Positions 3,313 through 50,552 of a DNA stretch of 64,000 bases are shown piece after piece. The position numbers and the translations under genes were made by a program. This DNA comes from Capnocytophaga canis (GTDB taxonomy: Bacteria; Bacteroidota; Bacteroidia; Flavobacteriales; Flavobacteriaceae): contig NZ_CDOI01000001.1 in the NCBI RefSeq assembly GCF_000827555.1, positions 1 to 64,000 on the forward strand, read 5' to 3'. Under the pieces are notes generated by a model, which made no database searches, was not told the DNA's origin, and saw only the letters and a program-made list of their open reading frames with translations. How positions within the stretch are numbered: position 1 is the first letter of the stretch; every line of letters begins with the position of its first letter.

Positions 3313-6300
3313 ATGTACAATATGAAAAGAAAGTTTTTAGTAACATTTGTGCTAACGATGGTTTTTTGTTTCCATTGGTTGTATGCACAAAATCGTACGG
3401 TTAGTGGTGTAGTTACCGATGAATCAGGGATTCCACTTTCAGGGGTGAGCGTTTTAGTTAAAGGAACAACCCGAGGAGTGTCCACCGATTTTGATGGTAA
3501 GTACAACATTCAAGCTCAAGCAGAAGAAATCCTTATTTTCAGTTCCATGGGATTTGTTACGCAAGAGAAAAAAGCTAACGTGACCAAACTCAATGTTATG
3601 TTGAAAGAAGACGCTGAAGAGTTGGAAGAGGTTGTTGTAACGGCATTAGGTATCAAACGAAGTGAAAAAGCTCTTGGGTATGCTTTACAGGAAATTGACG
3701 GAACAAAGTTACTTGAGGCTCGTGATGCTAACGTAACAAATGCTCTTTCAGGGAAAGTATCTGGTTTGCAGATTGTTAAAGGAGCGGGAGGTATGGCTGG
3801 TTCTTCAAAAATTGTGTTGAGAGGGCAAAATTCACTCACAGGAGATAATCAGCCACTGATTGTTGTAGATGGTGTGCCAATAGACAATAAAGCCAGTGGA
3901 GCTGCCGATATTTGGGGAAATTCCGGAATGGATATGGGGAACGGACTTTCCGATATCAATCCGGAAGACATAGAAAGCCTTACTGTTTTGAAAGGAGCTT
4001 CGGCAGCAGCACTTTACGGTTCTCGTGCTGGAAATGGAGTTATTCTGATTACCACCAAATCGGGAAAGGAAAAGAAAGGACTTGGAATTACATTTTCAAC
4101 GACTCTTGCCACTGAAGATATTTTTGTTAAACCAGCATTGCAAAATACTTATGCACAAGGGGTTGATAATTTATACGATCCTAAAACAGCTCGAAACTGG
4201 GGGCCAAGAATTGAAGGACAGACGGTAACTAATTGGAATAACAAGCAAGTGAAATTGGAGGCGTATGACAATATGAATAATTTCTTTCGTACAGGAATTA
4301 CAGCCACACAAGCTCTTTCTTTCCAGCAACAAATAAATAAAACTTCGGTATACGGTTCTGTTAACTATATGGATAATACCAGTATGGTGCCTGAAACGGA
4401 TATGAATCGTACATCAATGGCATTGCGAACTACAACTAATTTAGGAGCAAGTGATCGTTGGAAAGTAGATTTTAAGATCAATTATGTGAACACTCAGGCT
4501 CATAATCGTCCAATTCAAGGTTTGAACCAGTCAAATGTATTTAAAACCTTGACCATATTCCCTCGTACATTGGATATTCGTGAATTCAATCCACCGATAG
4601 TTAACGGACAACAAGTGTGGTATGATACGCAAACATTGCCCGACGACAACCCTTGGTGGACTCTTAAGTACAATACAAACAACGACGTGCGTAATCGTTA
4701 TATCAGTTTTGGAGCGGTAACTTACGAATTTACAAATTGGTTACGAGGAGAAGTAAAAGGAGGATTGGACTACTACAACACAAAAATGTATCAACGCAAA
4801 CATTCGGGAAGTTTATCAGTGCCAAAAAACGGACAATATGCAGAGGCTTCCAAAGAATTTTCTGAAAAGAACCTTAGCTTTCTGTTGATTGCTGAAAAAA
4901 GTGATTTACTGAAAGATCTTAACGGAACGTTGACCTTTGGAGGAAATCTAATGTCACAGCATATTTCAGAGATGAATGCTAAATCAGGAGATTTATTGAT
5001 TCCTAACATATTCTCATTGAACAATGGTAAAGAAAAACCAACTGTAACCTCATTGATTACACAGCGAAAAATGAATTCATTATACGGTTCAGCACAAATC
5101 GGATGGAAAAATAGTTTGTATTTGGACGCAACTTTTCGTAACGATTGGTCTTCAACCATGAGTAAAGTAAATCGTTCCTATTTTTATCCATCTTTGAGTT
5201 TTTCTGGGGTGATTTCAGAATTGATAGAGTTACCTGAATGGGTAACATTTGCCAAAGTAAGAGCTTCCTATGCTGAGGTGGGGAACGATTTAGAGCCTTA
5301 TATGTTGTATAACAGTTACTCAGTTGCGAAAGACTATTGGGGTGTGCCAACAATTTCAACTAATGAAATTTTGTATGACCATTCAGTGCGTAGTGAGTTA
5401 GTAAAATCATATGAAGCTGGGCTCGATTTAAGACTTTTTAATAACCGAGTGCGATTAGATGCAGCTGTATATAAGACCAATGCTATGCGTCAATTATTGC
5501 GTTTGCCGATGGATGAAACTAGTGGATATAAATTCAAGATAATCAACGCAGGAAATATTGAAAATAAAGGAGTTGAACTTTCGTTAGGAGTAGGTATTTT
5601 ACAAAATCCTGAAGGATTAAATTGGGATACAACGGTAAACTTTTCTAAGAATGAAAATCAAATTATCGACCTTTACCCAGGGGTAGCTTCCTATGAATTG
5701 CTTACAGTTGATGAGATTATGGTACTTGCTGAAGTAGGTAAAGAATATGGAGCAATTTATGGCTCGGCTATCCGTAGGGTCAATGATGCGAACAGTCCTC
5801 ACAACGGAAAGATGATTCTTACTGCGGAAGGATTGCCTCAGCGAGATGCTGTAGCATTACATTATCTTGGAAATCAGCAACCTGATTACTTGTTAGGTTT
5901 TAGCAATAGTTTCTCATGGAAAGGAATTAATTTAGACTTTCTTGTAGATGCTCGTGTAGGAGGAAAAATGTTCTCTATGACACGTAATTTGCTTACAGGC
6001 TATGGAATGGCAGCAGAAACAGCTGTTGATGGTAAGCGAGATTCATTTGTTGTAGAAGGTGTAATAGCCAATAGCTCAGGAGGATATGATGTAAACACAA
6101 AACAAGTAACACCTCAACGTTATTGGGGAGCATTGGCCCAAAACAACATCGGAATCACTGAAGCTAACATGTATGATGCTACATCGGTACGTTTAAGAAC
6201 CCTGTCATTAGGGTATACGTTTGGTAAAAAACACTTGGAAAGCATTGGAATCCAAAATCTCAAGTGTTCCTTCACAGCGAATAATCTTTGGTTGATTCAC

Positions 6301-6423
6301 ACCAACATTCCAGGAATTGATCCAGAATCAGTTTCAGGAACAGGCACAAACGTAACAGCATTGGAGTTTGGAGCGCCACCTACAAGCCGTACGTTTACGT
6401 TTAATATTACTATCGGACTTTAA
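3313..6423 (+). CDS. SusC/RagA-family TonB-linked outer membrane protein (pair A)
   Basis: 1036 residues. A signal peptide ends around YAQ (residue ~26). A carboxypeptidase-D-regulatory-like domain follows (about 28-108, with GVSTDFDGKY), then the TonB plug (about 110-250, with LIVVDGVPI and TVLKGASAAALYGSRAGNGVI) and a long beta-barrel to the C-terminus. SusC proteins import ligands captured by a SusD lipoprotein across the outer membrane, powered by TonB. The partner susD lies directly downstream. No glycoside hydrolase or regulator is nearby, so the substrate is unknown. An ATG at 3322 gives an equally good signal peptide. Unlike the other two susC genes here it has no poly-G run. Confidence 0.95.
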   Translation: MYNMKRKFLVTFVLTMVFCFHWLYAQNRTVSGVVTDESGIPLSGVSVLVKGTTRGVSTDFDGKYNIQAQAEEILIFSSMGFVTQEKKANVTKLNVMLKEDAEELEEVVVTALGIKRSEKALGYALQEIDGTKLLEARDANVTNALSGKVSGLQIVKGAGGMAGSSKIVLRGQNSLTGDNQPLIVVDGVPIDNKASGAADIWGNSGMDMGNGLSDINPEDIESLTVLKGASAAALYGSRAGNGVILITTKSGKEKKGLGITFSTTLATEDIFVKPALQNTYAQGVDNLYDPKTARNWGPRIEGQTVTNWNNKQVKLEAYDNMNNFFRTGITATQALSFQQQINKTSVYGSVNYMDNTSMVPETDMNRTSMALRTTTNLGASDRWKVDFKINYVNTQAHNRPIQGLNQSNVFKTLTIFPRTLDIREFNPPIVNGQQVWYDTQTLPDDNPWWTLKYNTNNDVRNRYISFGAVTYEFTNWLRGEVKGGLDYYNTKMYQRKHSGSLSVPKNGQYAEASKEFSEKNLSFLLIAEKSDLLKDLNGTLTFGGNLMSQHISEMNAKSGDLLIPNIFSLNNGKEKPTVTSLITQRKMNSLYGSAQIGWKNSLYLDATFRNDWSSTMSKVNRSYFYPSLSFSGVISELIELPEWVTFAKVRASYAEVGNDLEPYMLYNSYSVAKDYWGVPTISTNEILYDHSVRSELVKSYEAGLDLRLFNNRVRLDAAVYKTNAMRQLLRLPMDETSGYKFKIINAGNIENKGVELSLGVGILQNPEGLNWDTTVNFSKNENQIIDLYPGVASYELLTVDEIMVLAEVGKEYGAIYGSAIRRVNDANSPHNGKMILTAEGLPQRDAVALHYLGNQQPDYLLGFSNSFSWKGINLDFLVDARVGGKMFSMTRNLLTGYGMAAETAVDGKRDSFVVEGVIANSSGGYDVNTKQVTPQRYWGALAQNNIGITEANMYDATSVRLRTLSLGYTFGKKHLESIGIQNLKCSFTANNLWLIHTNIPGIDPESVSGTGTNVTALEFGAPPTSRTFTFNITIGL

Positions 6424-19723: not shown

Positions 19724-21724
19724 TTATTTTAAACTTTCACCTGAAACTTTGGACCAACCTGGGTTTTGGTAAACCACAGAAGTTTCTAAATTTCCTTCCG
19801 TTAAAGAAGTTAATCGAAAAGCATCCATAGGTAAAGGATTCAAGTAATGAGCATCATTCCATTTGTATCCCTCGAAATATAAGTTATTTACCTTGTTTCT
19901 TTGATACGGACGCAAATATACGCTACTAGATTCAGAGTTCACATTTCCACTGTCTGTATCACTAACCACTAAAGCAGATGTTCCATCTTTTTTCTTATAC
20001 CATTCCTTCATTGGTCCCCATATTTTGAATCCTTCAACGATGTATGGAGTTGCTTTTAGTTGATCCATCGCTCTCCAACGTTTTAAATCCATCCAACGAA
20101 GTCCTTCTGCTATAAACTCATTTCTACGTTCTCTACGGATGTTGTAAAGTGTTTTATCTACAAGATTTCCAGCTGAATGAGCTCCAAAATCACCTAATTT
20201 CTCTTTTTCCATATCTGTAGCTGCTATGGTTTTATTAAAGTCAGTATCTACATTTGCTCTTTCCCTAAGAGCTTTCCAGTATTTTTGAGAAAATCCATCT
20301 AATGAACCATCTAGCTCATAGTTAGCTTCCATGTAGTTAAGAAGAGCCTCTGCTCCGCGGAAAACCAGAGAACCTGTAACACCTACATGGTGCGTTATTG
20401 CATCTCTTTCGATATAGTTCATACCTTTTTTTACACGATAACCAGTAGAAGCTCTGGTTTCAGCAGGATTAAGTATTTCTGGAAGTTTAGCCTCAACAGC
20501 TTTTCCTTCGTGGTAATACACAACATCTTTATCTATTTTCATAAAAAGACCTAATCGGTCGTCACGATCTTTGATAACATCTTTTAAATAATCGTCTCCT
20601 GCATACTCTGAACCAGCAGCGTAGATAGGAAGCCCGTTTTTCATTAAGAAAGATTCTACCAAACCTTTAGTGTATCCAGAACCTCCACCATTTCGAGCAA
20701 GTTCCATTTGAATGTTGTGACGTATTCCTTCTCCTTCCGAGTATTTTCTCCAAAATATAACTTCATTGTAAGCCTCCATATTGCTGTCTGCAAACATCAT
20801 GTAATAGTCATTTTTAGATGCCAAATCCTTATCTCGAGCTACTCTTTCTCCTGAATTTTTGGTTAAGTTGTTAACCATTTTTTCTGCTACAACCTGAGCT
20901 GCATCTTTTGCTTGTTTCAAAAAGAATTTGATTTCACTATCTATGTCTATAGAGAATCCTTTTAAATAATCAGCAGAAGCTCCTGGCCAACCATTTCCCC
21001 CTGGTACCTGAGCTGTTCCCTTATGATACTTCAACCAAGTTCCTTCGTACAAGGCAACCCGTGATTTAAGTAAATAAGCGGCGTTAATGTTCAAACGATT
21101 TTTTCCGTTAGGGGTGCTTTCTCCAAGAAAAGAAATTGCTTTGTCTAAATCTGAAAGAATAAAACGAGCTACTTCATTACGAGGTCTTCTTTTACTTTTT
21201 TCTATAAGGACATCTTTTTTATCAGGAAGAACTTCTGTAATGATAGGAAAATCTCCAAAGGACTGTAATTTAGAGAAATAAATGTTTGCACGTAGTACAT
21301 ACATCTCACCAATATATTGCTTAATATTAGCTTGGTTCCCTTGAATTTTTCCTGCTTCGTACTTAGGTAATACGTTTTCAAAGAAATAATTACATTGGCG
21401 TATTGTGCCAAAATCCCAACCTCCGCCAGAGGAACCTACTCGCCATTCACCAGGAAGCCATCGAGTACTTCCTTCAGAAGCAGCTTGGTTATCTGTAGCA
21501 TTATCTGATTTGAAAACTGAAAGTCCATACTGACCGGGGCTAATTGTAGAAAAATCGGCTTCTGGATATAACTTAATAGAGTAAGACGCTAAATCAGCTT
21601 CATTATTGAAATACACTTCGGGAGTGATTTTATCCAAAGGTTCTCTGTCTAAAAAATCATTACAAGAAGCTATTAACAAAGCTCCTGAAACTATCGTAAT
21701 ATGTTTGAAATATTTTTTCATCAT
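19724..21724 (-). CDS. SusD/RagB-family outer membrane lipoprotein (pair B)
   Basis: 666 residues from the ATG at 21724; an ATG at 21721 is equally possible. The signal peptide ends in the lipobox LLIASC, followed by NDFLDREPLDKITPEVYF, the classical N-terminus of SusD proteins. MYVLRANIYFSKLQSFGDFP and the late RRERRNEFIAEGLRWMDLKRW are hallmark SusD segments. It should be the surface substrate-binding partner of the SusC encoded immediately upstream, eight bases away. No carbohydrate-active enzymes are nearby, so the ligand is unknown. The size is at the long end of the family. Confidence 0.95.
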   Translation of the reverse strand: MMKKYFKHITIVSGALLIASCNDFLDREPLDKITPEVYFNNEADLASYSIKLYPEADFSTISPGQYGLSVFKSDNATDNQAASEGSTRWLPGEWRVGSSGGGWDFGTIRQCNYFFENVLPKYEAGKIQGNQANIKQYIGEMYVLRANIYFSKLQSFGDFPIITEVLPDKKDVLIEKSKRRPRNEVARFILSDLDKAISFLGESTPNGKNRLNINAAYLLKSRVALYEGTWLKYHKGTAQVPGGNGWPGASADYLKGFSIDIDSEIKFFLKQAKDAAQVVAEKMVNNLTKNSGERVARDKDLASKNDYYMMFADSNMEAYNEVIFWRKYSEGEGIRHNIQMELARNGGGSGYTKGLVESFLMKNGLPIYAAGSEYAGDDYLKDVIKDRDDRLGLFMKIDKDVVYYHEGKAVEAKLPEILNPAETRASTGYRVKKGMNYIERDAITHHVGVTGSLVFRGAEALLNYMEANYELDGSLDGFSQKYWKALRERANVDTDFNKTIAATDMEKEKLGDFGAHSAGNLVDKTLYNIRRERRNEFIAEGLRWMDLKRWRAMDQLKATPYIVEGFKIWGPMKEWYKKKDGTSALVVSDTDSGNVNSESSSVYLRPYQRNKVNNLYFEGYKWNDAHYLNPLPMDAFRLTSLTEGNLETSVVYQNPGWSKVSGESLK

Positions 21725-21732
21725 TATCAAAA

Positions 21733-24700
21733 TTATAAGGTTAAACTTAAACCAAGTGACCAGGTTTTGGAAAGCGGATAAGTTTTCATTCCCTCTCCTC
21801 CATAACCAATTCCAAGCATTTCAGGATCGTATAATTTACTCAATTTAGTAAAAGTCATAATATTTTCTCCTGACACATAAATTCTTAGGTTTGAAATTCC
21901 AGTGTTGGAAAGATACTCTTGAGGAATAGTATAACCAAACTGCAAGTTTTTAACTCGTAAATAAGCTGCGTTTTGCAAGTATCTAGTTTGTGTGTGTTTA
22001 TTTCTATTTGAGCCCCAATCAGCACGTGGGTAGTAAGAATCCATATTCAAACCGAACGGATGACTTGCATCGTCACGGAAGTAATCCAAATGCTCTTCGA
22101 ATACAACAGTTTGCCATTTACCTCCATTAGCTCCCCAGAAGTAAGAACCTCCCGCAGAGAAATCTCTTTTTCCTACACCTTGCAAGAATAGTTTGACATC
22201 GAAGCCTTTGTAAGAAGCATCTAAGTTGACACCGAAATTATATCGAGGAGAACTATTACCGATGATTCTTCGGTCGCCAGAGTTTTTAACAGTATTTTCT
22301 CCTCCTGAAATTTTTCCGTCACCATCTAAATCAGCATACATAATATCTCCAGCACTCCAATTGCTACCCAATTGATTTTGTTTTACTTTTTCTAAATGAG
22401 CATCCATTTCTGCTTGGCTTTTTGCAATACCGATGGTGGTATAACCCCAAATATCACCTACAATTTCTCCTTCATACCAATTGTTTAAAGCGAAAGAAGG
22501 ATTTGGATATTTCAACACTTTTTGACGTGAATCAGACAATAAAACACCTACTCCATAATTGAAATCTTCGCCAATTTTATCTCTCCAACTTAGGCTCAAT
22601 TCGAAACCTGAAGATAGCATATCCGCGTTATTTGTTCGAGGAACAGCAGTCCCTAAGGTTTGAGGAAGTTCAGGTGCAGGCCCTACCATATTAAGAGTTT
22701 CTCTGTTGAAATAGTCAAATGAGAAGTTGAATCTGTTATTAAAAGCAGTCACATCCAAACCAATGTTCCAAGAACGAACGGTTTCCCAAGTTAAGTCTGT
22801 ACTAATTAATCCGGGCATCGATGATGTTGTAGGTCTTTTGTCTCCTAAAATCCAAGCTCCTGCATTAGGGTGATATCCCATTGCTGAATAGAAAGGATAC
22901 CAGTTTTGTGTATTTTGGTTCCCTAATTCTCCCCAAGAACCTCTAAGTTTTAATGTACTTACTTTTTCTTGTAATGGTTCCCAGAAACTTTCTTGAGCAA
23001 TATTCCATCCTACAGATACTGATGGGAAGAAGTTCCAACGTTGATCTCTCAAGAATCGGCTTGTTCCGTCGTATCTTCCATTTACTTCCAACAAGTATCT
23101 TCCTTTGTAGTCGTAATTTATACGACCGAAGAATCCAGTAGTTGACCAATGTCCATACCCTCCATTGGTTACCTTATCACTAGAAGCACTTGTATTTAAA
23201 GTAGGGTTGAGAGGAGTAATTATATTTTGTTTTTCAGCTCCCAAATTTCTGTCTTTAAGAATTTCTGACTGAAAACCTACCATAAATTTAAAATTATGCC
23301 CATTATCCAAATCAAGGTGGTAGTTACTATAGATATTTGGGTTAAAAAAGTTATGCTTATAGGCATATTCTTTTACTGAAGACGTTTGATTATGGATAGG
23401 ATATTGAATCCCATCTGCATCATGAGCATATGCTGTCAAGTAATCAGTGTGTGCAAATTCACTATGAGTTCTGTAATTGAATTCAACTTTTAAATCCCAA
23501 TTGTCTAATATTTTATAAGAAGCGTTTAACTGTGTGTATAACCAATCTTTTTGAGATTTTTGACGTCCACCATCTTGTAGGTACGCTACTTTACTTTCAC
23601 GTGCATAAAACCCATTAGGATCTTTTAAAGGAATGATAGGCCAATAGCGGATAATATCATGAAAGAATACACCGTTATTACTTAAATAAGAAGGAGCTTC
23701 ATAATCCTGACGTACAAATCGGGTGCTATATCCTAGTTTCAATTTATCGTTAATTTGCGCATTAATTTTCCCTGTTAGTGTATAACGATCGAACGTTTCT
23801 GGAGCATAGCGGAAAAGACCATCTCTGTTGAGAAAATTAGCTGATAGGTAGTATTGTACTTTTTCTGATCCTCCATTTACACTTAGGTTATGCTCCGTTG
23901 AGAAGGAAGCTCTTTTGTAATGCTCGTCAATCCAGTTAGTATTTGCAACGGGTAACAAGTCATGTACATCCCAAGTTTCCCATTTGTTAGAGCTGTTTCG
24001 GAACATATATTCCGTTCTTTTACCTTCTTGAAAATCCTTGATCTGTTGTAGTTTTTCTTCTCTAAATTGTGTACCCCCTACATCGGCATCGTTGAAATAT
24101 AATGCCCAAGTGTAAGAATCTACCATTTTAGGACGAATAATGGGAGAATCCGCTCTAAGACTAGAACTGTAATTAACAGAAACCTTTCCTGCTTTTCCTT
24201 TTTTGGTAGTGATTAGTATAACTCCGAAAGGAGCTCTTGAACCGTAAATTGACGCTGCTGCTGCATCTTTTAGGATGGAGATATTTTCAATATCGTTAGG
24301 ATTCAAAGCATTCATGTTTCCTTCCATCCCGTCTATTAAAACTAAGGGTCCGGATGTAGAGCCCGTACCTATTGTACCAGCTCCCCTGATGTTTATTCCC
24401 TTAGTGGTATTTAATTGCCCTCCTGAGTTTGATGTAGAAATGTTTAATCCAGGAGCTACGCCTTGTAAGGCTTCTGTAACTGTAGTTACAGGGCGAGATT
24501 CTAATGTTTTAGCATCCACAGAAGTAACCGCACCTGTCAGATTTACTTTTTTCTGAGTCCCAAATCCAACAACCACAACTTCTTCAAGTTGTTCAGTTTC
24601 TTCTTTTAGTAAAACATTGATTATTAGTGATTTACCCCCCCCTGTCACGGTTTTTTCTTGAGAGGTGAAGCCCAAAGAGCTAAAAACCAAAACATCACCT

Positions 24701-24900
24701 GGATTAGCCTTGATTTCATAGTTTCCATCAAAATCAGTAGAAACCCCACGCGAGGTGTTTTTGATAGAAATACTTACTCCTGCTAACGGAATTTTGCTTT
24801 CATCAGTAACAACTCCTTTTACTGATACTGTCTGTGCTAATAGCGGACTGAAGCACCATCCTAACACAAACATAAACAAGGTTAAAATTTTTACTTTCAT
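21733..24900 (-). CDS. SusC/RagA-family TonB-linked outer membrane protein (pair B)
   Basis: 1055 residues: a signal peptide to LLAQ (23), a carboxypeptidase-regulatory-like domain (about 25-105), then a plug with VVVVGFGTQKK, GPLVLIDGM and SILKDAAAASIYGSRAPFGVILITTKKG, and a barrel to the C-terminal LGLSLTL. Its first 110 residues differ at only 11 positions from the SusC at 43040, but the rest is unrelated in detail. A run of eight G (coding strand) at codons 87-89 encodes GlyGlyGly. One base more or less would put a stop within a few codons, so expression may be phase variable. It should transport the ligand of the adjacent SusD. The substrate is unknown. Confidence 0.95.
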   Translation of the reverse strand: MKVKILTLFMFVLGWCFSPLLAQTVSVKGVVTDESKIPLAGVSISIKNTSRGVSTDFDGNYEIKANPGDVLVFSSLGFTSQEKTVTGGGKSLIINVLLKEETEQLEEVVVVGFGTQKKVNLTGAVTSVDAKTLESRPVTTVTEALQGVAPGLNISTSNSGGQLNTTKGINIRGAGTIGTGSTSGPLVLIDGMEGNMNALNPNDIENISILKDAAAASIYGSRAPFGVILITTKKGKAGKVSVNYSSSLRADSPIIRPKMVDSYTWALYFNDADVGGTQFREEKLQQIKDFQEGKRTEYMFRNSSNKWETWDVHDLLPVANTNWIDEHYKRASFSTEHNLSVNGGSEKVQYYLSANFLNRDGLFRYAPETFDRYTLTGKINAQINDKLKLGYSTRFVRQDYEAPSYLSNNGVFFHDIIRYWPIIPLKDPNGFYARESKVAYLQDGGRQKSQKDWLYTQLNASYKILDNWDLKVEFNYRTHSEFAHTDYLTAYAHDADGIQYPIHNQTSSVKEYAYKHNFFNPNIYSNYHLDLDNGHNFKFMVGFQSEILKDRNLGAEKQNIITPLNPTLNTSASSDKVTNGGYGHWSTTGFFGRINYDYKGRYLLEVNGRYDGTSRFLRDQRWNFFPSVSVGWNIAQESFWEPLQEKVSTLKLRGSWGELGNQNTQNWYPFYSAMGYHPNAGAWILGDKRPTTSSMPGLISTDLTWETVRSWNIGLDVTAFNNRFNFSFDYFNRETLNMVGPAPELPQTLGTAVPRTNNADMLSSGFELSLSWRDKIGEDFNYGVGVLLSDSRQKVLKYPNPSFALNNWYEGEIVGDIWGYTTIGIAKSQAEMDAHLEKVKQNQLGSNWSAGDIMYADLDGDGKISGGENTVKNSGDRRIIGNSSPRYNFGVNLDASYKGFDVKLFLQGVGKRDFSAGGSYFWGANGGKWQTVVFEEHLDYFRDDASHPFGLNMDSYYPRADWGSNRNKHTQTRYLQNAAYLRVKNLQFGYTIPQEYLSNTGISNLRIYVSGENIMTFTKLSKLYDPEMLGIGYGGEGMKTYPLSKTWSLGLSLTL
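24635..24642 (-). repeat. G8 homopolymer run inside susC (pair B)
   Basis: Eight C on the plus strand are eight G on the coding strand, in ACA GGG GGG GGT AAA. With seven G the frame reads GTA AAT CAC TAA, and with nine it reads GGG TAA, so both single-base slips stop translation at once. The same run is in the same place in the susC at 43040. Confidence 0.7.
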
Positions 24901-24927
24901 AAATTTATGTGTTTGTTAATAATGGCA

Positions 24928-24958
24928 CAAAGATATGTATATATTTACTAAAAGCAAA
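24928..24958 (-). promoter_or_regulatory. Promoter of susC/susD pair B
   Basis: On the minus strand TTTG (24955-24958), a 19-base spacer and TATCTTTG (24935-24928) match the consensus fully. The leader to the ATG is 27 bases, and its first 20 or so bases are nearly the same as the leader of the susC at 43040. Confidence 0.75.
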
Positions 24959-25143
24959 GAAAAGGTTGTTTTTTTTTAACATATTATTAAATAAAAAAAT
25001 GTTTGTTTTTAAAGTATTCAGAAGTAAAGAGTTAACTTTTTCTGTTAGAATAAAAATAAAACGATTTTAAATTTTGAAAATATCATTATAGATTTTCTAT
25101 ATATGCAGACAGAGATGATTTGGTATAAATATGGAATCTTCAC

Positions 25144-26244
25144 TTATATCACCTCAAAAAGTTTACCAGGAAACGGACGAACCATTCCTTTCATTTCTAA
25201 TTGAAATAATAAGGAAGATACTTTGTAAATAGGAAGTTGACAGTCTATAGCTATCGAATCCAATAATTGCTTTCCGTTGTTTTTCAGGTGATTATGTATT
25301 TTTTCTTCCTCGGGAGTTAAAGAAACGAATAATTCTTGTTGAATGGTTTTGGCTTTAGGTTTATCCCAATTTAGGTGATATAATAAATCTTGAGCAGAGA
25401 GTAAAATTCGAGCTTTTTCATTGCGTATCAGCATATTGCATCCCAAGCTATAAGGGTCGGAAGCTCTTCCAGGAACGGCAAAGACCTCGCGGTTATATGA
25501 AAAAGCAATGTCTGCAGTAACTAAACTTCCACCTTTGATTCCCGATTCAATTACGATAGTAGCCTCTGATAAACCAGCAATAATCCGATTACGGCTTAGA
25601 AAATTCTTTCGATCGAATTTACTATCAATACCAAAATCAGTAATGAATCCGCCATTAGCTTCCATTTCTGCCATATATTTAGCATGTTGATTAGGGTAGA
25701 TAGTATTCAATCCATGAGCTAAGCAAGCGATTGTCTGTAAATTGTGCTTCATAGCCGTTTTATGAGCCAGAATGTCTACGCCATAGGCGTATCCACTAAC
25801 AATAACTATGTCTAAATCAGATAGTTCTTCAATTATTTTTTCACAAAAAGCAATTCCATACGGAGTTATATTTCGAGTTCCAACAATGCTTAAAATACGT
25901 TTGTTAGCCAAATTTATGTTTCCACGTTGGTAGAATATAATCGGGCTATCAACGCATTGTTTCAATAGAGTAGGGTAGTCAGTGTCGTTGTAGTGACAAA
26001 CTTTGATGTTATTTTTCAGGATAAATTCAAGCTCAGTTTCTGCCTGACGTAGATAGTCAGCAGAGGAGGAAAAATTTTGTAAGAGTTTTTCTCCAATACC
26101 GCTAACACGCTCCAAATGATGTTTTTTGATTGAAAATATAGCTTTGGCACTTCCAAAGTGAGCAAGTAGTTTTTTAGCTGTAATGTCGCCTACCATCGGA
26201 ATTTTTTTCAAAGCTATCGTGTATAATAATTCTTCTTCCTGCAT
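25144..26244 (-). CDS. dprA: DNA-processing protein DprA
   Basis: 366 residues. An N-terminal helix-hairpin-helix-like region (VSGIGEKL, ~45-52) is followed by the Rossmann-like DprA core with RILSIVGTRNITPYG, IVSGYAYGVDILAH, GFITDFGIDSKF, RNRIIAGLSEATIVIES, GSLVTADIA and VPGRASDPYSLGCN. A C-terminal winged-helix region completes it (about 310-366). DprA loads RecA onto incoming single-stranded DNA during natural transformation. Length and domain order are normal. The neighbours are unrelated, so the gene is probably a monocistron. It supports competence in the organism but does not prove it. Confidence 0.95.
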   Translation of the reverse strand: MQEEELLYTIALKKIPMVGDITAKKLLAHFGSAKAIFSIKKHHLERVSGIGEKLLQNFSSSADYLRQAETELEFILKNNIKVCHYNDTDYPTLLKQCVDSPIIFYQRGNINLANKRILSIVGTRNITPYGIAFCEKIIEELSDLDIVIVSGYAYGVDILAHKTAMKHNLQTIACLAHGLNTIYPNQHAKYMAEMEANGGFITDFGIDSKFDRKNFLSRNRIIAGLSEATIVIESGIKGGSLVTADIAFSYNREVFAVPGRASDPYSLGCNMLIRNEKARILLSAQDLLYHLNWDKPKAKTIQQELFVSLTPEEEKIHNHLKNNGKQLLDSIAIDCQLPIYKVSSLLFQLEMKGMVRPFPGKLFEVI

Positions 26245-42027: not shown

Positions 42028-42725
42028 AAAACTTCTTAGAAAATCCATTATGGTTGTTAGCCCTCACTTTTGCTATCTATTACGGTGGGCAAATGTTACA
42101 AAGGAAATATAGAAGTCCACTGTTGAGTCCAGTAGTCATTACGGTTTCGGTGTTGATAGGTTATTTGTTGGTCTTTAATATTTCGTATGAAACTTATTCA
42201 GCATCGGGCGGTTTTATCGAATTTTGGTTAAAACCTTCCATTGTAGCTTTGGGCGTTCCTTTGTACTTACAAACTTCAAAAATCAAAAAGCAATTAGTGC
42301 CATTACTGATTTCTCAATTGGTAGGCAGTGTGTTGGGTTTGCTTTCTGTTTGTTTTTTTGCTAAAATTTTAGGAGCTGATAAAGAGGTTATTTTATCATT
42401 AGCTCCAAAATCAGTAACGACCCCTATTGCCATAGAGGTATCACATACGCTCGGAGGAATTCCAGCTTTGACCGTAGCTTCTGTAATCATTACAGGGATT
42501 TTAGGCAGTCTTTTTGGATTTAAAATTTTGCAGTGGTTTGGTGTTAAAAGTCCAATGGGGCGAGGCATAGCCTTAGGGACGGCTTCCCATGGACTGGGAG
42601 TTATGGCAGCTTTTGATGTTAGTGAAAAACACGCTACGTATGCCAGTTTGGGTATGATTTTCAACGGGATTTTTACAGCAATATTGGCATATCCTATTAT
42701 TTTACTTATTGAACCTTGGTTATAG
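42024..42725 (+). CDS. lrgB: LrgB/CidB family membrane protein
   Basis: 233 residues with about six to seven membrane helices. SPVVITVSVLIGYL, WLKPSIVALGVPLYLQTSKIKK, LAPKSVTTPIAIEVSHTLGG and GRGIALGTASHGLGVMAAFDVSE are highly conserved LrgB motifs. It is the partner of the LrgA encoded directly upstream and translationally coupled to it. In plant and bacterial relatives the LrgAB pair moves glycolate or pyruvate. The exact role here is not known. Confidence 0.93.
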   Translation: MKNFLENPLWLLALTFAIYYGGQMLQRKYRSPLLSPVVITVSVLIGYLLVFNISYETYSASGGFIEFWLKPSIVALGVPLYLQTSKIKKQLVPLLISQLVGSVLGLLSVCFFAKILGADKEVILSLAPKSVTTPIAIEVSHTLGGIPALTVASVIITGILGSLFGFKILQWFGVKSPMGRGIALGTASHGLGVMAAFDVSEKHATYASLGMIFNGIFTAILAYPIILLIEPWL

Positions 42726-43039
42726 TTTTGATATTCAATATTTTAATTCTTTTTTTTCAAGACTCTTCTCTTTAATTCCTGTTTTACATTCAGTTTATTT
42801 GGAATTTTATTATTTTATTTCGTTAAATATTTGTTTTTGTTTAACTTTTCGTTTTTTTATTTCTTTTTGTTTTCGGATTTAAAAGGTTATATACTATTGT
42901 GTTATAGCATGTTAAAATTTGATGATGTGTTTTTTTAAGCCTGTTTTGTTAATGATATATTAAAAAAACAGCATGAAAATTTTTATATTCTCAAAAAAAG
43001 ATGTAATTTTGTGCTATTATTAACAAACAGAGTGATTTT
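42726..43039 (+). promoter_or_regulatory. 314-base gap holding the promoter of susC/susD pair C
   Basis: A very AT-rich gap with a marked excess of T on the plus strand in its first half and no credible frame. TAATTTTG (43004-43011) is an exact -7 box. No clear TTTG is found at -33. The leader from there to the ATG (28 bases) shares 21 of 22 bases with the leader of the susC on the minus strand at 24900. No lrgB terminator is obvious. Confidence 0.6.
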
Positions 43040-46000
43040 ATGAAAGTAAAAATTTTAACATTGTTTATCTTTGTGTTAGGCTGGTGTTCCAGTTCGTTAT
43101 TAGCACAAACTGTATCAGTAAAAGGAGTCGTTACTGATGAAAATAAAATTCCGTTAGCGGGAGTGAGTGTTTCAGTCAAAAATACTTCTCGTGGAGTTTC
43201 CACAGACTTCGATGGAAACTATGAAATCAAAGTCAATTCGGGTGATGTTTTGGTTTTTAGTTCCTTAGGTTTTACCTCTCAAGAGAAGATTGTGACAGGG
43301 GGGGGTAAAGATTTGATAATCAACGTTTTACTAAAAGAAGAGGCAGAGCAATTGGAAGAAGTGGTGGTTACGGCCTTGGGTATCAAGCGACAAGAAAAAA
43401 GTTTGTCGTATGCTACACAAACTGTTTCAGGTAAGGAATTGACGGATGTCCCTTCGAGCAACGTTTTGAACACTTTGGCAGGAAAAACGGCAGGTATGTC
43501 TGTTTCAGGTTCAGGTTCAGGAGTAGGTAGCTCTGTAAAAATAGTGTTGCGTGGTAATCGTTCTATTCAAGGGAACAACCAACCTCTTTACGTAGTGGAT
43601 GGAACGCCTATTAGCAGTGGAGCTTTTTCAGGTTCTTCTATTGGTGATGGCTACGGCGGAGGTATTGATGCCGGAGATGGTATGGCAGGTATTAACCCAG
43701 AAGATATTGAGAGTATCAACGTTTTAAAAGGTGCTACGGCTGCGGCCTTGTACGGTAGCCAAGCAGCTAACGGTGTAATTTTGATTACCACTAAAAGAGG
43801 TAATTCTGAAAAGATAGCAGTGTCAGTTACTTCTTCTGTTCAAGCAGATATTCCTTATTTGACTTATAAATTCCAAGATCGTTATACAATGGGAGTTGAT
43901 GGTGTGAGTCAATCATCAATGGATGCTTGGGGAGCGCCACGTACCAATCAAGATTTGAGCAATGATTTTGTGAAAAATTTCTTCAACACAGGATTCATGT
44001 CACAAAATGGGGTTTCTGTTAGCGGAGGGAATAAAGTGACTAAAAATTTTCTTTCCTATCAAAATACTACCGCAACAGGTATTATGCCTAATAATACGTT
44101 CGATAAACATAATTTGAGTTTGCGTTCTACGACTTCTCTTTTTGATGATTTTATTGAAGTAGACGGAAGTGTTGCACTTACGCATCAAGATACAGGAAAT
44201 GCACCTGCTGCTCCAGGACAGTATTTTAACCCTATCTTAGGATTATATCTTTTCCCTGCAGGAACAACAGCATTTAATTCATACAGAGATGTTTATGAAG
44301 TGCCTGATCCTTCACGGAATGGATTAATGACCATGAACTGGGCAAACCAAACCGATGTTTATAAAAACCCATACTGGTTAATCAATCGTCATAATTATTC
44401 ATACAACGTAGAGAAAGCGATTGTAAAATTAAATACTAAATTTAATTTTACAAGTTGGTTAAATCTTCAATTGCGAGGAAGTTATGATAAAACAGCTACT
44501 TTAGGAGAACGAAAAGTACATGCAGGAATGACTACCCTAACAGGAAAAGGAGGTCGTTATGATCATAAAACCCAAAATTATGCTTTGATGTACGCGGACG
44601 CTCTTTTGACTGCAAACAAATCATATGAAAAATTCTCAATAAGTGCCACATTGGGGACAAGTATTTCTGATACAAAAGAGACTACTAATGAAATCCAAAT
44701 TCACAACTTGGCAATAGCAAATCTTTTTGACTTGAGAAACTACATTGGAATAGAAGGAGGTTCCGATAATAAGAGAACACATAGACAATTGCAATCTGTA
44801 TTCGGAACCGTGTCATTAGGTTATAATGAAATGCTTTATTTAGATGTGACAGGACGTAATGACTGGTCTTCTACTTTACCTGCCAATAATAGAAGCTATT
44901 TCTATCCATCAGTAGGTACATCTTTCGTTTTTACAGAAATGTTGGACCAAAATGAAGCAAAACCAGAGTGGCTTGATTTCGGTAAACTTCGTTTCTCTTG
45001 GACACAAGTAGGTAACGATATGCCATGGGGATTAACAGAGCCTTATGACAAATTGCAAAAAGGAGGGGTTATCGAAGCTAATACCGTGAAACCTTTCGAT
45101 GATTTAAAACCAGAACGCTCTAGTTCTCTTGAGGCAGGGGTCAATCTAAGATTTTTGGGTGGACGCTTTACTTTTGATGCAGCTGTATATAAAACAGTTA
45201 CTGAAAATCAGTACTTTAAAGTGGATAACACCTCTGGTTCGGGGTATTCACAATACTACATCAATGCTGGAGAAGTTGAAAATAAAGGATTTGAACTTAC
45301 TTTAGGTTTCACTCCAATCAAAACAAATGATTTCCAATGGAATGGGTATTTAAACTATTCAACCAACAAAAATACTGTACTTTCATTGCCATCTCAATAT
45401 TTGGATAAAGGATTTGAAATATCATCTGTTGGGTATAAATTCCGTCTTAAAGAAGGAGAGGAATGGGGACGTATGTACGAAAAACGTCTTAAACGAGACA
45501 ATCAAGGAAATATTCTTCTTACGCAGACTATCGAAAATGGTGTAGATAAAGGAATTCAATTGCAACAAAGCGATGATTTTGAGTATATCGGAAACGTTAA
45601 TCCAAAATTCTTGATAGGATTTAAAAATGAGTTTTCATACAAAAACTTTTCATTAGGATTGTTAATTGATGGACGTTTTGGAGGAAATGTCATTTCATCA
45701 ACACAAAACATCCTTGACCGTTTCGGACGTAGCCAACGTTCAGCAGAAGCTCGCGATAACGGAGGTATTCCTTTAACAGGAACACTTGTAACTACAACAA
45801 AAGTAACAGGAAGCCCAGACGTAGTAACACAAACAGCTTTCAATCAAAAAATAGACGCTCAAACTTACTACAAAGTAGCACCTGCGGGAGAAACTTCAGT
45901 TTATTCAGCAACTAATGTTCGTTTAAGAGAGCTTTCACTGTCTTACACTCTTCCAAAATCACTTGTAGAGCGTGTGAAATACGTAGAAAGTGTTAGATTG

Positions 46001-46156
46001 TCTCTTATAGGACGTAATTTAGGTTTCTTCTACAATGAGGCTCCTTACGACCCTGAAATTACACTATCAACAAGTAGTAACGGATTGTCTAATGCAGACT
46101 TATTCACTATGCCAGCTTCACGAAGTGTAGGATTTAGTATTAATATTAACTTTTAA
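43040..46156 (+). CDS. SusC/RagA-family TonB-linked outer membrane protein (pair C; possible NanO-type sialate receptor)
   Basis: 1038 residues: a signal peptide to LLAQ (23), a carboxypeptidase-regulatory-like domain (about 25-105), a plug with TALGIKRQEKSL, PLYVVDGTPI and NVLKGATAAALYGSQAANGVI, and a barrel ending VGFSININF. The first 110 residues are almost those of the SusC at 24900, while the plug type instead resembles the one at 3313. A G8 run lies at codons 87-89. With its SusD and the propeller-symporter gene next to it, the likely role is uptake of sialic acid or sialylated glycan fragments across the outer membrane. The substrate is inferred from context only. Confidence 0.94.
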   Translation: MKVKILTLFIFVLGWCSSSLLAQTVSVKGVVTDENKIPLAGVSVSVKNTSRGVSTDFDGNYEIKVNSGDVLVFSSLGFTSQEKIVTGGGKDLIINVLLKEEAEQLEEVVVTALGIKRQEKSLSYATQTVSGKELTDVPSSNVLNTLAGKTAGMSVSGSGSGVGSSVKIVLRGNRSIQGNNQPLYVVDGTPISSGAFSGSSIGDGYGGGIDAGDGMAGINPEDIESINVLKGATAAALYGSQAANGVILITTKRGNSEKIAVSVTSSVQADIPYLTYKFQDRYTMGVDGVSQSSMDAWGAPRTNQDLSNDFVKNFFNTGFMSQNGVSVSGGNKVTKNFLSYQNTTATGIMPNNTFDKHNLSLRSTTSLFDDFIEVDGSVALTHQDTGNAPAAPGQYFNPILGLYLFPAGTTAFNSYRDVYEVPDPSRNGLMTMNWANQTDVYKNPYWLINRHNYSYNVEKAIVKLNTKFNFTSWLNLQLRGSYDKTATLGERKVHAGMTTLTGKGGRYDHKTQNYALMYADALLTANKSYEKFSISATLGTSISDTKETTNEIQIHNLAIANLFDLRNYIGIEGGSDNKRTHRQLQSVFGTVSLGYNEMLYLDVTGRNDWSSTLPANNRSYFYPSVGTSFVFTEMLDQNEAKPEWLDFGKLRFSWTQVGNDMPWGLTEPYDKLQKGGVIEANTVKPFDDLKPERSSSLEAGVNLRFLGGRFTFDAAVYKTVTENQYFKVDNTSGSGYSQYYINAGEVENKGFELTLGFTPIKTNDFQWNGYLNYSTNKNTVLSLPSQYLDKGFEISSVGYKFRLKEGEEWGRMYEKRLKRDNQGNILLTQTIENGVDKGIQLQQSDDFEYIGNVNPKFLIGFKNEFSYKNFSLGLLIDGRFGGNVISSTQNILDRFGRSQRSAEARDNGGIPLTGTLVTTTKVTGSPDVVTQTAFNQKIDAQTYYKVAPAGETSVYSATNVRLRELSLSYTLPKSLVERVKYVESVRLSLIGRNLGFFYNEAPYDPEITLSTSSNGLSNADLFTMPASRSVGFSININF
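43298..43305 (+). repeat. G8 homopolymer run inside susC (pair C)
   Basis: The sequence reads ACA GGG GGG GGT AAA GAT in frame. With seven G it becomes GTA AAG ATT TGA, and with nine it becomes GGG TAA. Both single-base slips end translation near residue 90. Runs of G this long stand out in an AT-rich genome. Confidence 0.7.
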
Positions 46157-46167
46157 TTAGAAACACT

Positions 46168-47799
46168 ATGAAAAAACATATAATATCCGTAAAATCATTG
46201 GCGTTTTTAGCTTTAGCAACTGCATTAGGAGGTTGTACAGATAAATTTGAAGACTACAATCGTGATACGTTCGCGCTCACTGAGGAGTTAAAAAAAGCCG
46301 ATTGGATGCACTTAAAGGCTTTCTTCCCACAAATGGAACAGTCTATTTACTATAATAACAGTAAGGGAAACTGGGAATTCCAAATAGCACAAAACTTAAA
46401 TGCTGATATGTTCGGCGGTTATTTAACCCCTCCAACACCTTTTAATGGAGATAAGAATAATATCAACTACCATATGATGGAGGGATGGAATCAGTTTGCT
46501 TTTGGTATGTATAATAATAACATCATGAAGCCTTGGTTCAATGTGAAGGCTGAGACCTTGGATAAGAAAGAGTCGTTGAACGTATATGCCATCTCATTGA
46601 TTCTCAAAGTGGCAGGTATGCATAAGTCAACAGACCTTTACGGGCCGATTCCATATTCAAAATATGGTTTGGGAGGAACTACGACTCCTTATGATTCACA
46701 AGAGGCAATCTACGACCAATTTTTCACTGAATTGGATGAAGCCGTTTCTTATTTGGAAGCCCACTTAGCAGGGCCAAATAAAGATGTGAATAGTTTGGGT
46801 GATTCGGATTTGATTTACGGAGGTGTACACACAAAATGGCTCAAATGGGCGAACTCTTTGCGTTTGCGTCTTGCAATGAGGGTGTCAAAAGTTAATCCTT
46901 CATTAGCACAAAAGGAGGCTGAAAAAGCAATCAACAATGCGTATGGAGTTTTTACAACGAATGCAGATAACGTTTTAGTTCCTACAATCAATATAGGACA
47001 TCCACTTATCGTTGTTGCTAATGATTATAATGATTCACGTATGAGTGCTGATATGGAATCTATTTTAACAGGATTGAAAGACCCTCGTTTGTCCGAATAT
47101 TTTTCAAAAGCTACTGATAAAGACGAAAACGTGAATGGAAAATATAAAGGTATTCGTCAAGGTATCAATATGAAAGCTAAAGATTTACGTTCAGGTTATT
47201 CCACTTTGGGAGCTCGTTTCGATATGTCAAAAAGAAACATCACTCCTATTACCTTAATGACCGCTGCGGAAGTGTATTTTTTACGTGCAGAAGGAGTTCT
47301 AAGAGGTTGGAACATGGGAGATACGGCTGAAAATCTTTATAAGAAAGGTATTGAACTTTCCATTGAACAATGGGGCGTTTCTGGAGCAAATGCTTATATT
47401 GAAAACGATACAAACAAACCAGCGGATTATACAGATCCTAAAGAAAAATTGTATGATAAACCTGCTGTTTCAACTGTAACTGTAAAATGGGATGAGGGTG
47501 CTTCCAACGAAGAAAAATTGGAGAAAATTATCACTCAAAAATGGATTGCTATGTTCCCTGACGGAGCAGAAGCTTGGGCTGAATTCCGTAGAACGGGTTA
47601 TCCAAAACTTTTCCCTATTGAGGTGAATAATAGTGGTGGTGAAATTGACTCTAACGTTATGATTCGTCGTTTGCGTTTTCCTGAAAATGAACGCACAGGA
47701 ACTAATAAAGAAGAAGTGGCCAAAGCAGTTCAGTTCTTGAAAGGAAAAGACTCTCCTGGTACACGTTTGTGGTGGGATACAGGAACTCCTAATTTTTAA
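46168..47799 (+). CDS. SusD/RagB-family nutrient-binding lipoprotein (pair C; possible NanU-type)
   Basis: 543 residues. A signal peptide ends in the lipobox ALGGC followed by TDKFEDYN. The body has SusD-like features: GMHKSTDLYGPIPYSKYG, WLKWANSLRLRLAMRVSKV, and late EKIITQKWIAMFPDGAEAWAEFRRTGYP. It is the shorter SusD type, like that of pair A. It starts 11 bases after susC and should form the surface lid of that transporter. The neighbouring NanM-like propeller and symporter suggest a sialic-acid ligand, as in NanU of related Bacteroidota. That remains an inference. Confidence 0.93.
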   Translation: MKKHIISVKSLAFLALATALGGCTDKFEDYNRDTFALTEELKKADWMHLKAFFPQMEQSIYYNNSKGNWEFQIAQNLNADMFGGYLTPPTPFNGDKNNINYHMMEGWNQFAFGMYNNNIMKPWFNVKAETLDKKESLNVYAISLILKVAGMHKSTDLYGPIPYSKYGLGGTTTPYDSQEAIYDQFFTELDEAVSYLEAHLAGPNKDVNSLGDSDLIYGGVHTKWLKWANSLRLRLAMRVSKVNPSLAQKEAEKAINNAYGVFTTNADNVLVPTINIGHPLIVVANDYNDSRMSADMESILTGLKDPRLSEYFSKATDKDENVNGKYKGIRQGINMKAKDLRSGYSTLGARFDMSKRNITPITLMTAAEVYFLRAEGVLRGWNMGDTAENLYKKGIELSIEQWGVSGANAYIENDTNKPADYTDPKEKLYDKPAVSTVTVKWDEGASNEEKLEKIITQKWIAMFPDGAEAWAEFRRTGYPKLFPIEVNNSGGEIDSNVMIRRLRFPENERTGTNKEEVAKAVQFLKGKDSPGTRLWWDTGTPNF

Positions 47800-47918: not shown

Positions 47919-50552
47919 ATGATAAACAAGTTTCAATTATGCTTAGTGCTACTCTTTTTGCATTGCAGTAGTGCCATTTTTTCGCAAGAAAATAAGAAAA
48001 CAGCCACACAATTTCATCAAACTACTATTTTTGATACACAAAGTTTAGAAAAACTACCACAACTTCATGAAGGCTTAGCAGGAACCTATTTTGGTAAACA
48101 TGCCTCATACTTCATTTTAGCTGGAGGGTCTCACTTTCCTACTGAAAAACCTTGGCAAGGAGGGAAAAAGCAATTTTCAAAAACAGTTTTTGTGTTTCAG
48201 GTTGAATCAGATGGTAATTTAACCTCTATTTATCAAGCCGAAGACCTCCCCGAAGCCATTGCAGAAGGAGCATATGTCACTATTTCAGATGGTTTGCTTT
48301 GTCTTGGAGGACAAACTTCCGAAGGATTGTCGTCCAAAGTTTTTTCTATTTCATATAACAACGGGAAAATAATCCTAAAACATTATGCCGATTTGCCAAT
48401 CCCTGTAAAAAGTGCTGTAGCTGAGGTTGTTGGAAATAGTGTTTATCTTTTAGGAGGGCAAACTGCTGATAACGGTTCGTTAAACCAATTCTTGAGATTA
48501 GATTTACAAAAAACAGACGCAACATGGGAAACTTTACCTGCTTATCCTCAAAAAGTATCAGGAGCAGCTATGGTAGCACAACAGAATGGTACAGAAATCG
48601 CTTTATTTGCTTTTGGAGGAAGAAATCAAAATGGGAGAAATCTTACAGAATTTTACCATCAGGCATATACTTTTAAACCTTCTTTAAACGAGTGGTTTCC
48701 AATTAAAGATATTCAAAAAAATAAAGAAGTTTTACCATTGGCCGTTGCGAATGCTTCAAAAATTGGAGCATCGAGTATTTTACTTTTTGGAGGTGACACA
48801 GGAGTTATTTTTAATCAAGTGGAACAAGCTATTTATGATGAAAATATAGAACTTCGTAATCAACTTTGGCAAACCCACAAAGGTTTTGAAACTGACGTTT
48901 TGGTCTATAACACCATTACCGATGAGTGGTTTAATTTAGGTAGTACAGATAAAGCGGTTGCTGTAGCTTCTGTTTTTTATGATGCTCAAAAACAGGAAGT
49001 TTATGTTGCGGGAGGAGAGCAGAAACCAGGAATTCGTTCACCTTATATTACCAAACTATCGTTTTCCAAGGATAGTGAATTTGGCTGGTTAAACTATGCC
49101 GTTTTAGCATTGTATTTGATCGGCATGTTAATGTTAGGATTTTTCTTCATGAAAAATAATAAAAATACGGATGATTACTTCAAAGGTGGAGGACGCATTC
49201 CGTGGTGGGCTGCTGGGATTAGTATTTTTGCTACGATGCTCAGTGCCATTACTTTCATCTCGATTCCTGCGAAAACCTATGCTACTGACTGGCGTATGTT
49301 AATGTTTAATATGACCATTATTTTGGCAGTACCTTTCATTATTCGCTTTTTTTTACCTTTCTTTTTGAGATTTAAATTGGATACAGCTTATGAATATTTG
49401 GAAAAGCGTTTCAATCGACCAGTTCGCTGGGTGGCTTCAGCACTGTTTAGTTTTTTCATGATCAGTCGTATTGCTATTGTATTGTTTTTACCATCTTTAG
49501 CTCTTAATGCAGTAACAGGGTTCAATATTTATTATGCTATTTTGATAATGAGTATTGTAACAATTATCTATTCCACCAGTGGCGGTATGGAGGCTGTGGT
49601 TTGGGGCGATGTGATCCAAGGGTTTATATTGGTAGGAGGAGCTATAGTTGCTTTTATTGTGATGGTAGTAGGTATTGATGGTGGGTTTGGTGAATTTTGG
49701 AATACAACTGTTACTTTCAATAAATTAGATACGTTTGATTTTCGATTTGATTTCTCACAGCCTGTATTTTGGGTAGTTGTTTTCGGAGGCCTTGCAAACA
49801 CTTTAATATCTTATACCAGTGACCAATCGGTGGTACAGCGTTACATGTCTACTGTTAATGAAAAGGCGACGGCAAAAAGCATATGGCTTAATGGAATTGT
49901 GAGTGTTCCCGTGAGTATATTATTTTTCTTGCTTGGAACAGGTTTGTTTGCATTCTACAAATCGAACCCCGAGCAGATGTCGATTACTGACCCAAATATT
50001 GACTCTATTTTTCCTCAGTTTATTGTTTCTCAGATGCCTGTTGGAATGTCGGGATTGTTAATAGCTTCGATTTTTGCAGCAGCGATGAGTACGCTTTCTT
50101 CCAATATAAATTCGGTTTCAGCTGTCATTACGTCTGATTTTTACAAAACAATTTTTAAAAATACTTCATTTAAAGGGCAGATGAATGTAGCTCGTTGGTC
50201 AGGAGTCGTTATTGGTTTGTTAGGGACAGCAATGGCAATTGTGTTAGCTACTTGGAATATTGCTTCGTTGTGGGATCAGTTCAATACCTTTTTAGGGTTG
50301 TTGACCAGTGGTTTGGGAGCGTTGTTTATTTTAGGAATTTTCTTTCCAAGAGTTAATGGTACCGTAGCTCTCATTGGACTCATCTCTGGAGTTTTGATTC
50401 TCTACGGAGTCAAATCATACACCAGTCTTTCGTTTCTTCTTTATGGGCTTATAGGAATGGTATCGTCTATCATTGTAGCGTTCATTATCAGTATGTTAAT
50501 TCCGAATAAGAAAGAAGTAAATGGTATTACATGGAAATACAGAAATAAGTAG
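47919..50552 (+). CDS. NanM-like Kelch propeller (mutarotase) fused to sodium:solute symporter
   Basis: 877 residues in two parts. A signal peptide (to IFSQ, ~22) leads into a Kelch-type beta-propeller (about 40-385). Its LAGGSHFPTEKPWQGGKKQF and repeated GG-rich blades match the cyclically permuted sialic-acid mutarotase (YjhT/NanM-like) family. From Glu387 a symporter of the SSS family follows with about 13 helices, including DDYFKGGGRIPWWAAGISIF and YSTSGGMEAVVWGDVIQG. The propeller would face the periplasm and convert the sugar anomer taken up by the transporter. Sialic acid is the likely substrate, inferred from the propeller type. It follows a SusC/SusD pair. Confidence 0.88.
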   Translation: MINKFQLCLVLLFLHCSSAIFSQENKKTATQFHQTTIFDTQSLEKLPQLHEGLAGTYFGKHASYFILAGGSHFPTEKPWQGGKKQFSKTVFVFQVESDGNLTSIYQAEDLPEAIAEGAYVTISDGLLCLGGQTSEGLSSKVFSISYNNGKIILKHYADLPIPVKSAVAEVVGNSVYLLGGQTADNGSLNQFLRLDLQKTDATWETLPAYPQKVSGAAMVAQQNGTEIALFAFGGRNQNGRNLTEFYHQAYTFKPSLNEWFPIKDIQKNKEVLPLAVANASKIGASSILLFGGDTGVIFNQVEQAIYDENIELRNQLWQTHKGFETDVLVYNTITDEWFNLGSTDKAVAVASVFYDAQKQEVYVAGGEQKPGIRSPYITKLSFSKDSEFGWLNYAVLALYLIGMLMLGFFFMKNNKNTDDYFKGGGRIPWWAAGISIFATMLSAITFISIPAKTYATDWRMLMFNMTIILAVPFIIRFFLPFFLRFKLDTAYEYLEKRFNRPVRWVASALFSFFMISRIAIVLFLPSLALNAVTGFNIYYAILIMSIVTIIYSTSGGMEAVVWGDVIQGFILVGGAIVAFIVMVVGIDGGFGEFWNTTVTFNKLDTFDFRFDFSQPVFWVVVFGGLANTLISYTSDQSVVQRYMSTVNEKATAKSIWLNGIVSVPVSILFFLLGTGLFAFYKSNPEQMSITDPNIDSIFPQFIVSQMPVGMSGLLIASIFAAAMSTLSSNINSVSAVITSDFYKTIFKNTSFKGQMNVARWSGVVIGLLGTAMAIVLATWNIASLWDQFNTFLGLLTSGLGALFILGIFFPRVNGTVALIGLISGVLILYGVKSYTSLSFLLYGLIGMVSSIIVAFIISMLIPNKKEVNGITWKYRNK

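Follow-up and report, generated by a model that had tools for sequence, protein, structure and literature searches.

A recurrent poly-G tract in the leaders of Capnocytophaga SusC genes is a probable on/off switch

We analyzed a 64 kb stretch of the Capnocytophaga canis genome (hereafter the window) and examined a G8 run close to the 5' end of one of its susC genes (43040..46156). The description that fits the tract best is that of a poly-G contingency site which recurs in the leaders of Capnocytophaga SusC genes, and it is well supported by comparison across the genus. As a simple-sequence contingency locus, the run very probably serves as a random on/off switch of SusC receptors. An earlier note, made from the window, had proposed slippage at this G8 run as such a switch, and the proposal is supported at the level of sequence by the recurrence of the run, by copies that lie out of frame and by relatives that encode the same glycines with mixed codons. 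In the proposed mechanism, replication slippage would alter the length of the run, with G8 keeping the frame of susC 43040..46156 open (ON). In the OFF state, 89 or 91 residues would be made, comprising the signal peptide and most of the CarboxypepD_reg-like domain, so that no receptor would be expected at the outer membrane. In a growing clone, slippage would presumably occur often and be reversible. About half of the Capnocytophaga genomes that we examined appear to carry the same switch, in the same codons of some of their susC paralogues, and the SusC/SusD uptake systems on display should vary randomly from cell to cell within a clone.

Codon 87 of the open reading frame begins at 43298, and the tract spans codons 87-89 of 1038, so that the homopolymer lies towards the 5' end of the frame, a trait of contingency loci. 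The in-frame position of the run given in the earlier note was confirmed on the reading frame, as were the consequences that it had drawn for a slip in either direction (Table 1). Loss of one G yields GGG GGG GTA AAG ATT TGA, with a stop at codon 92, whereas gain of one G yields GGG GGG GGG TAA, with a stop at codon 90. Both stops fall ahead of the plug domain, the match to which begins at residue 120. Besides TIGR04056, the signature model TIGR04057 also scored above its cut-off for this gene (63.1 vs 46.2 bits), and the adjacent SusD partner (PF12741, 46168-47799) is a further trait of SusC/RagA membership. The short gap of 11 bases to the SusD gene makes a polar effect of an OFF susC on its partner possible.

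Table 1 Features of the window around the tract-bearing susC genes (window positions)
Feature	Position	Strand	Remark
susC, tract-bearing	43040..46156	+	TIGR04056 665.1 bits vs cut-off 368.25
5' leader (signal peptide region and N-terminal domain)	43040..43370	+	DNA 84% identical to leader of susC 21733-24900
CarboxypepD_reg-like domain (PF13715), residues 27-110	43118..43369	+	encloses the tract
G8 tract, candidate slippage site	43298..43305	+	codons 87-89 GGG GGG GGT; in-frame (ON) state
TAA brought in frame by gain of one G	43306..43308	+	directly 3' of the tract
TGA brought in frame by loss of one G	43314..43316	+	four codons 3' of the tract
Plug domain (PF07715), residues 120-246	43397..43777	+	absent from the predicted product in either slipped state
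SusD-like lipoprotein partner (PF12741)	46168..47799	+	11 bases past the stop of susC 43040..46156
NanM-like kelch mutarotase region fused to sodium:solute symporter, one ORF	47919..50552	+	
Second susC, tract-bearing	21733..24900	-	holds G8 24635..24642
G8 tract (C8 on the plus strand)	24635..24642	-	second susC, same codons, in frame
SusD partner of the second susC	19724..21730	-	
First susC of the window, tract-free (internal contrast)	3313..6423	+	

The earlier note had also stated that the window holds no G or C run of at least seven outside two susC genes, and this was borne out: the G8 at 43298-43305 and the C8 at 24635-24642 are the only ones in the 64 kb. Beyond the window the genome has further G/C runs, for example a C7 at 64533, just past the edge. 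The whole assembly (2.57 Mb in 214 contigs) contains runs of at least eight at six places. Four of them are internal to contigs, each within a susC leader and at one and the same place, namely in both window genes and in genes on contigs C132 and C143; the remaining two sit at contig ends. With 13 SusC matches above the TIGR04056 cut-off in the genome, the tract is thus present in 4/13. The C132 tract is a G8 in frame, and that of C143 is a G9 out of frame. In C143, the frame leading into the tract is open for 92 codons (86 if counted from its first Met) and ends in GGG GGG GGG TAA, and the rest of the gene forms an open frame of 968 codons. This natural copy shows the +1 state (GGG TAA) that had been predicted for the window gene from its sequence. 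Over its plug segment, C143 shares 96, 92 and 87% identity with genes in genomes G005, G019 and G014 that carry an in-frame G9, G9 and G8, respectively, and 93% with a tract-free gene in G004. In contigs C24, C174 and C159 of the assembly, the very first bases are G/C runs, of 10, 9 and 7, and the breaks of C174 and C24 interrupt long reading frames; contigs starting at runs may reflect an assembly that fails where run length is mixed.

We analyzed the occurrence of the tract in 20 Capnocytophaga genomes by scoring 24 candidates per genome and reading the 5' end of each of 150 susC genes, those listed with the best HMM scores. A G-run of 8-12 in the N-terminal CarboxypepD-like domain, at about HMM position 60-66, was found in 26 of these 150. 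The ranking by HMM score disfavors out-of-frame copies, one of which (G016:C8) fell outside the 150; susC 43040 itself also lies outside, and three other tract-bearing genes of the same genome lie inside. Pooling all leader tracts that were read gave 31, spread over 10 of the 20 genomes, with 27 in frame and 4 out of frame (32 rows minus the non-SusC loci L012 and L353, plus L275, which the motif had missed; the leader places G017:C44:3256, G017:C178:7326 and G019:C1:2102726 were left out). The in-frame tracts were G8 in 11, G9 in 15 and G12 in one, and the out-of-frame tracts were G8 in three and G9 in one. Within the 5' ends read, the other 10 genomes had no leader tract, G006 and G011 having no susC among the 150. 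A further 26 loci in the genus, obtained from a search with GGGGGGGGTAA, added no leader tract to those counted. The 31 leaders are homologous and do not represent independent events.

Tract length differed between paralogues and between genomes, and the differences included out-of-frame copies with an open remainder. Behind the same left flank (gtagt), G8 was out of frame and G9 and G12 were in frame, and G8 after ACA and G9 after ACG encode an identical T-G-G-G peptide. By these comparisons, the length has changed more than once and most copies are held in frame. The four out-of-frame copies, from G000:C143, G016:C5, G016:C8 (near 28.3 kb) and G017:C11 (L074), are a minority (4/31), which is a point against a switch. 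The frame after the tract remains open for 968 codons in C143, 985 in G016:C5 and 1058 in G016:C8, and in L074 for 518 codons as far as the stretch reached.

Two other readings concern these copies. Errors of assembly or reading at homopolymers could have produced them, all tracts being really in frame. G-runs are difficult to read, and two of the three runs of at least nine in this draft assembly lie at contig ends. Of the four OFF copies, three come from genomes that match metagenome contigs (G014, G016 and G017, which together hold 13/31 tracts). We nevertheless regard such errors as an unlikely explanation, because the frame-keeping differences in length (ACA with G8, ACG with G9, and G12) are not expected from read error and the run still recurs when the OFF copies are disregarded. 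The out-of-frame copies might also be dying pseudogenes, with the run acting as a mutational hotspot and not as a maintained switch. Long runs of any kind mutate faster and the OFF copies are few, but the long open remainders listed above, the close relatives of C143 that are in frame in other genomes and the retention of a pure-GGG run at one site in ten genomes, contrary to decay, leave this explanation highly improbable.

A phase-variable tract is also to be distinguished from a run that is a side effect of encoding a conserved Gly-Gly-Gly loop of the N-terminal domain and switches nothing. The glycines do lie within a conserved domain, G12 adds just one Gly, and a G8 appears in approximately 2-3% of synonymous shuffles of the gene. 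Tract-free relatives, on the other hand, keep the glycines with mixed codons, namely GGA GGA GGT in L295 and L302, GGG GGT GGT in L172 and GGA GGT GGC in C183 of this genome, indicating that the protein does not need the run. Many SusC genes among the matches listed have no Gly3 at the site, and in C133, whose leader shares 90% identity with the C132 leader, the site reads GGA GCA GGT. Moreover, GGG GGG accounts for 6/189 of the Gly-Gly pairs away from tracts in the 150 loci, and out-of-frame copies occur. Taken together, these observations make a by-product of the glycine loop very unlikely.

The codons behind the tract were examined in the same genes. Among 24 other in-frame tracts, scored by script and with homologous leaders, so not 24 independent cases, a +1 shift met a stop at the first codon past the tract (TAA or TAG) in 23, and a -1 shift met one at the fourth codon in 19. 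Elsewhere in the same genes, the median distance to a stop was 9 codons (+1) and 8 codons (-1), and at 14% of other places a +1 shift likewise runs into a stop within one codon. The near stops are partly explained by conserved codons.

Slippage of RNA polymerase or the ribosome on the G-run is a further reading, in which a mixture of products would be made and run length would tune the level. Slippery runs are in principle capable of this. We give it very little credence, as in-frame lengths dominate (27/31), which such slippage does not need. With regard to the switch at the DNA level, eight Gs are short for a fast switch, and this counts against the proposal. Loss of MutS as a cause was unsupported, as mutS1 was found in the genome with a match at 928.6 bits; the presence of mutS is a further point against the proposal.

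We next considered whether composition could explain the tract. A first-order model with the GG/CC frequencies of the window predicts 0.29 runs of at least eight, and two were observed. When synonymous codons were shuffled, G8 occurred anywhere in the gene in 57/2000 and 42/2000 trials. One G8 in a single gene is thus only mildly unusual by composition, and rarity in the window (0.29 expected vs 2; 2-3% of shuffles) was set aside as too weak alone to serve as proof. Chance becomes untenable because the run recurs at one site in 31 genes of Capnocytophaga. In a hand count of eight genomes in which every run was listed and read (G000 and G002-G008), 12 of 54 runs of at least eight were at the susC site; this count omits G001, whose 29 further runs (two of them read, none known in a susC leader) would bring the share to 12/83. 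Other runs of at least eight lie in unrelated coding sequence or are intergenic. Reading every such run as a switch was rejected, since several fall in other coding sequence, with the same 'IDIGGGT' context around the runs of L371 and L375. Two longer runs within other ORFs, a G13 (L376, G008:C14) and a G12 (L356, G003:C40), are candidate switches, and L057 (G001:C2) is a 33-base tandem repeat with G6-G9 runs in many copies at a contig end.

The motif GGGGGGGGTAA (G8 then TAA) occurred 60 times in the 20 Capnocytophaga genomes vs 15 times for the reversed control. The search outside the genus covered 120 genomes, of which 118 belong to other genera; in these 118 the motif occurred 33 times vs 19 for the control. 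The excess over the control outside the genus indicates that part of the signal is due to composition or is general. In 26 of the 33 listed places outside the genus that were read, none showed a SusC leader in the frames printed, and a switch in the wider family was set aside on this ground. The best 80 of 413 confirmed relatives were retained, and of the SusC leaders that came from named records of other genera, 0/72 had a run longer than 5.

We then compared the leaders with the remainder of the proteins. For the window pair, susC 43040 and susC 21733, the protein leader is 89% identical and the rest 29%; for C132 and C133 (77 kb), the values are 90% and 28%. Most other pairs showed approximately 42-63% in the leader and 26-39% in the rest, with exceptions reaching 78% in the leader and 49% in the rest (a comparison made without C143 and with the C148 rows void, the domain split there being misplaced). 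In gapped DNA alignments, identity drops past about position 360 of the gene for the window pair and past about 210-270 for C132/C133, against a noisy baseline of 60-79%. The plug segment of gene 21733 is 88, 85 and 86% identical to those of tract-bearing genes in G017, G008 and G016 (G9, G8 and G9), and the out-of-frame gene of G016:C5 has tract-free relatives at 90-94%. The contrast between leader and rest, which is outstanding in the two pairs named first, fits an exchange of leaders, as does the finding that genes sharing at least 90% of the plug differ in having the tract. Since the leaders of most pairs are better conserved than the rest, domain conservation explains part of the contrast. 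Tentatively, and with somewhat less than even confidence, we suggest that the leader of about 330 bp may be a portable switch cassette that passes by recombination from one susC paralogue to another, adding or taking away the on/off switch and giving each clone a combinatorial SusC/SusD display. If so, the shifting SusC/SusD sets would act against phages and immunity as much as in feeding. A scan for direct repeats of at least 40 nt over 16000-52200 gave four weak pairs and was discarded; the leader pair lies on opposite strands and is undetectable in this way.

SusC/SusD pairs are among the main glycan and peptide importers of Bacteroidota and are surface-exposed. Relatives of the window susC with solved structures within SusC/RagA are BT_2264 of B. 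theta and RagA of P. gingivalis, and the window gene is adjoined by its SusD partner. As to the substrate of the susC 43040..46156 locus, the fusion ORF downstream and one BNR_2 sialidase-type protein in the genome are hints that make a sialic-acid type plausible. The NCBIfam mutarotase models score under their cut-offs on 47919..50552. The assignment to sialic acid is tentative: no NCBIfam model, NanU included, matched the SusD partner at 46168..47799, and the nanA model had no match above its cut-off in the genome.

The proposed switch resembles known systems in part. The haemoglobin uptake genes hmbR and hpuA of Neisseria meningitidis undergo phase variation at poly-G within the frame (PMC3786947). 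As in Capnocytophaga, the poly-G there lies in the frame of an outer-membrane uptake system and its lengths are ON or OFF; the commonest ON lengths given for hpuA are 10 and 13 (PMC3786947), vs 8, 9 and 12 for the in-frame tracts of Capnocytophaga. The phylum and the substrate differ, and the Capnocytophaga site, unlike that of hmbR/hpuA, is shared by several paralogues of a large family and lies within an N-terminal extension domain. SusC/SusD genes of Bacteroides fragilis are described as phase-varying by DNA inversion (PMC4747536, PMC12632263). Both cases would have SusC/SusD surface proteins varying at random, in B. fragilis through DNA inversion (Tsr0667; PMC4747536); there a recombinase shuffles DNA, whereas a change in run length is proposed for Capnocytophaga. 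We searched the 5' ends of both tract-bearing window genes (42500-43420 and 24500-25300) and found no inverted repeats common to them. The first region contains five AT-rich pairs of 12-31 bases, of which one of 12 bases is perfect and the rest are imperfect, and the second contains none. DNA inversion was therefore rejected as the switch of the window susC genes, no inverted-repeat element being shared by both 5' ends. Gardnerella belongs to a lineage unrelated to Capnocytophaga, and its sialidase NanH3 is an enzyme and not a receptor. The gene nanH3 is named in a 2025 review of phase variation as varying by slipped-strand mispairing, a similar case of simple-repeat switching of a glycan-use gene (PMC11868660). 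The review names inversion in Bacteroides, and a term search of it found neither Capnocytophaga nor TonB (PMC11868660). Likewise, a term search for Capnocytophaga and Bacteroid- found neither in a survey of prokaryotic homopolymers (PMC2831843). Among the open-licence papers that our searches listed, none was seen to describe switching by poly-G for SusC or for Capnocytophaga.

If the proposal is correct, it adds switching by run length to the SusC family, which is known for switching by DNA inversion. Random switching of multiple receptors together, through one site common to them, could then explain differences between Capnocytophaga cells and strains in feeding, phage sensitivity and immune recognition. 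OFF copies would also be at risk of annotation as pseudogenes.

Runs were also seen at other positions relative to genes. In L196 (G003:C9), L167 and L232 (G017:C113), a G8-G10 run lies 51-57 bases upstream of the HMM start. These runs, in or before the signal peptide, were excluded from the 26 tracts above and are a possible second switch site. Intergenic G8-G10 runs followed within approximately 25 bases by an element resembling TANNTTTG, which we take to be the Bacteroidota promoter motif, were found at L085 and L065 (G008) and L360 (G005), and the same layout was seen at L064 (G007), L424 (G018) and L430 (G010). Runs so placed would fall in the promoter spacer, where their length could tune transcription.
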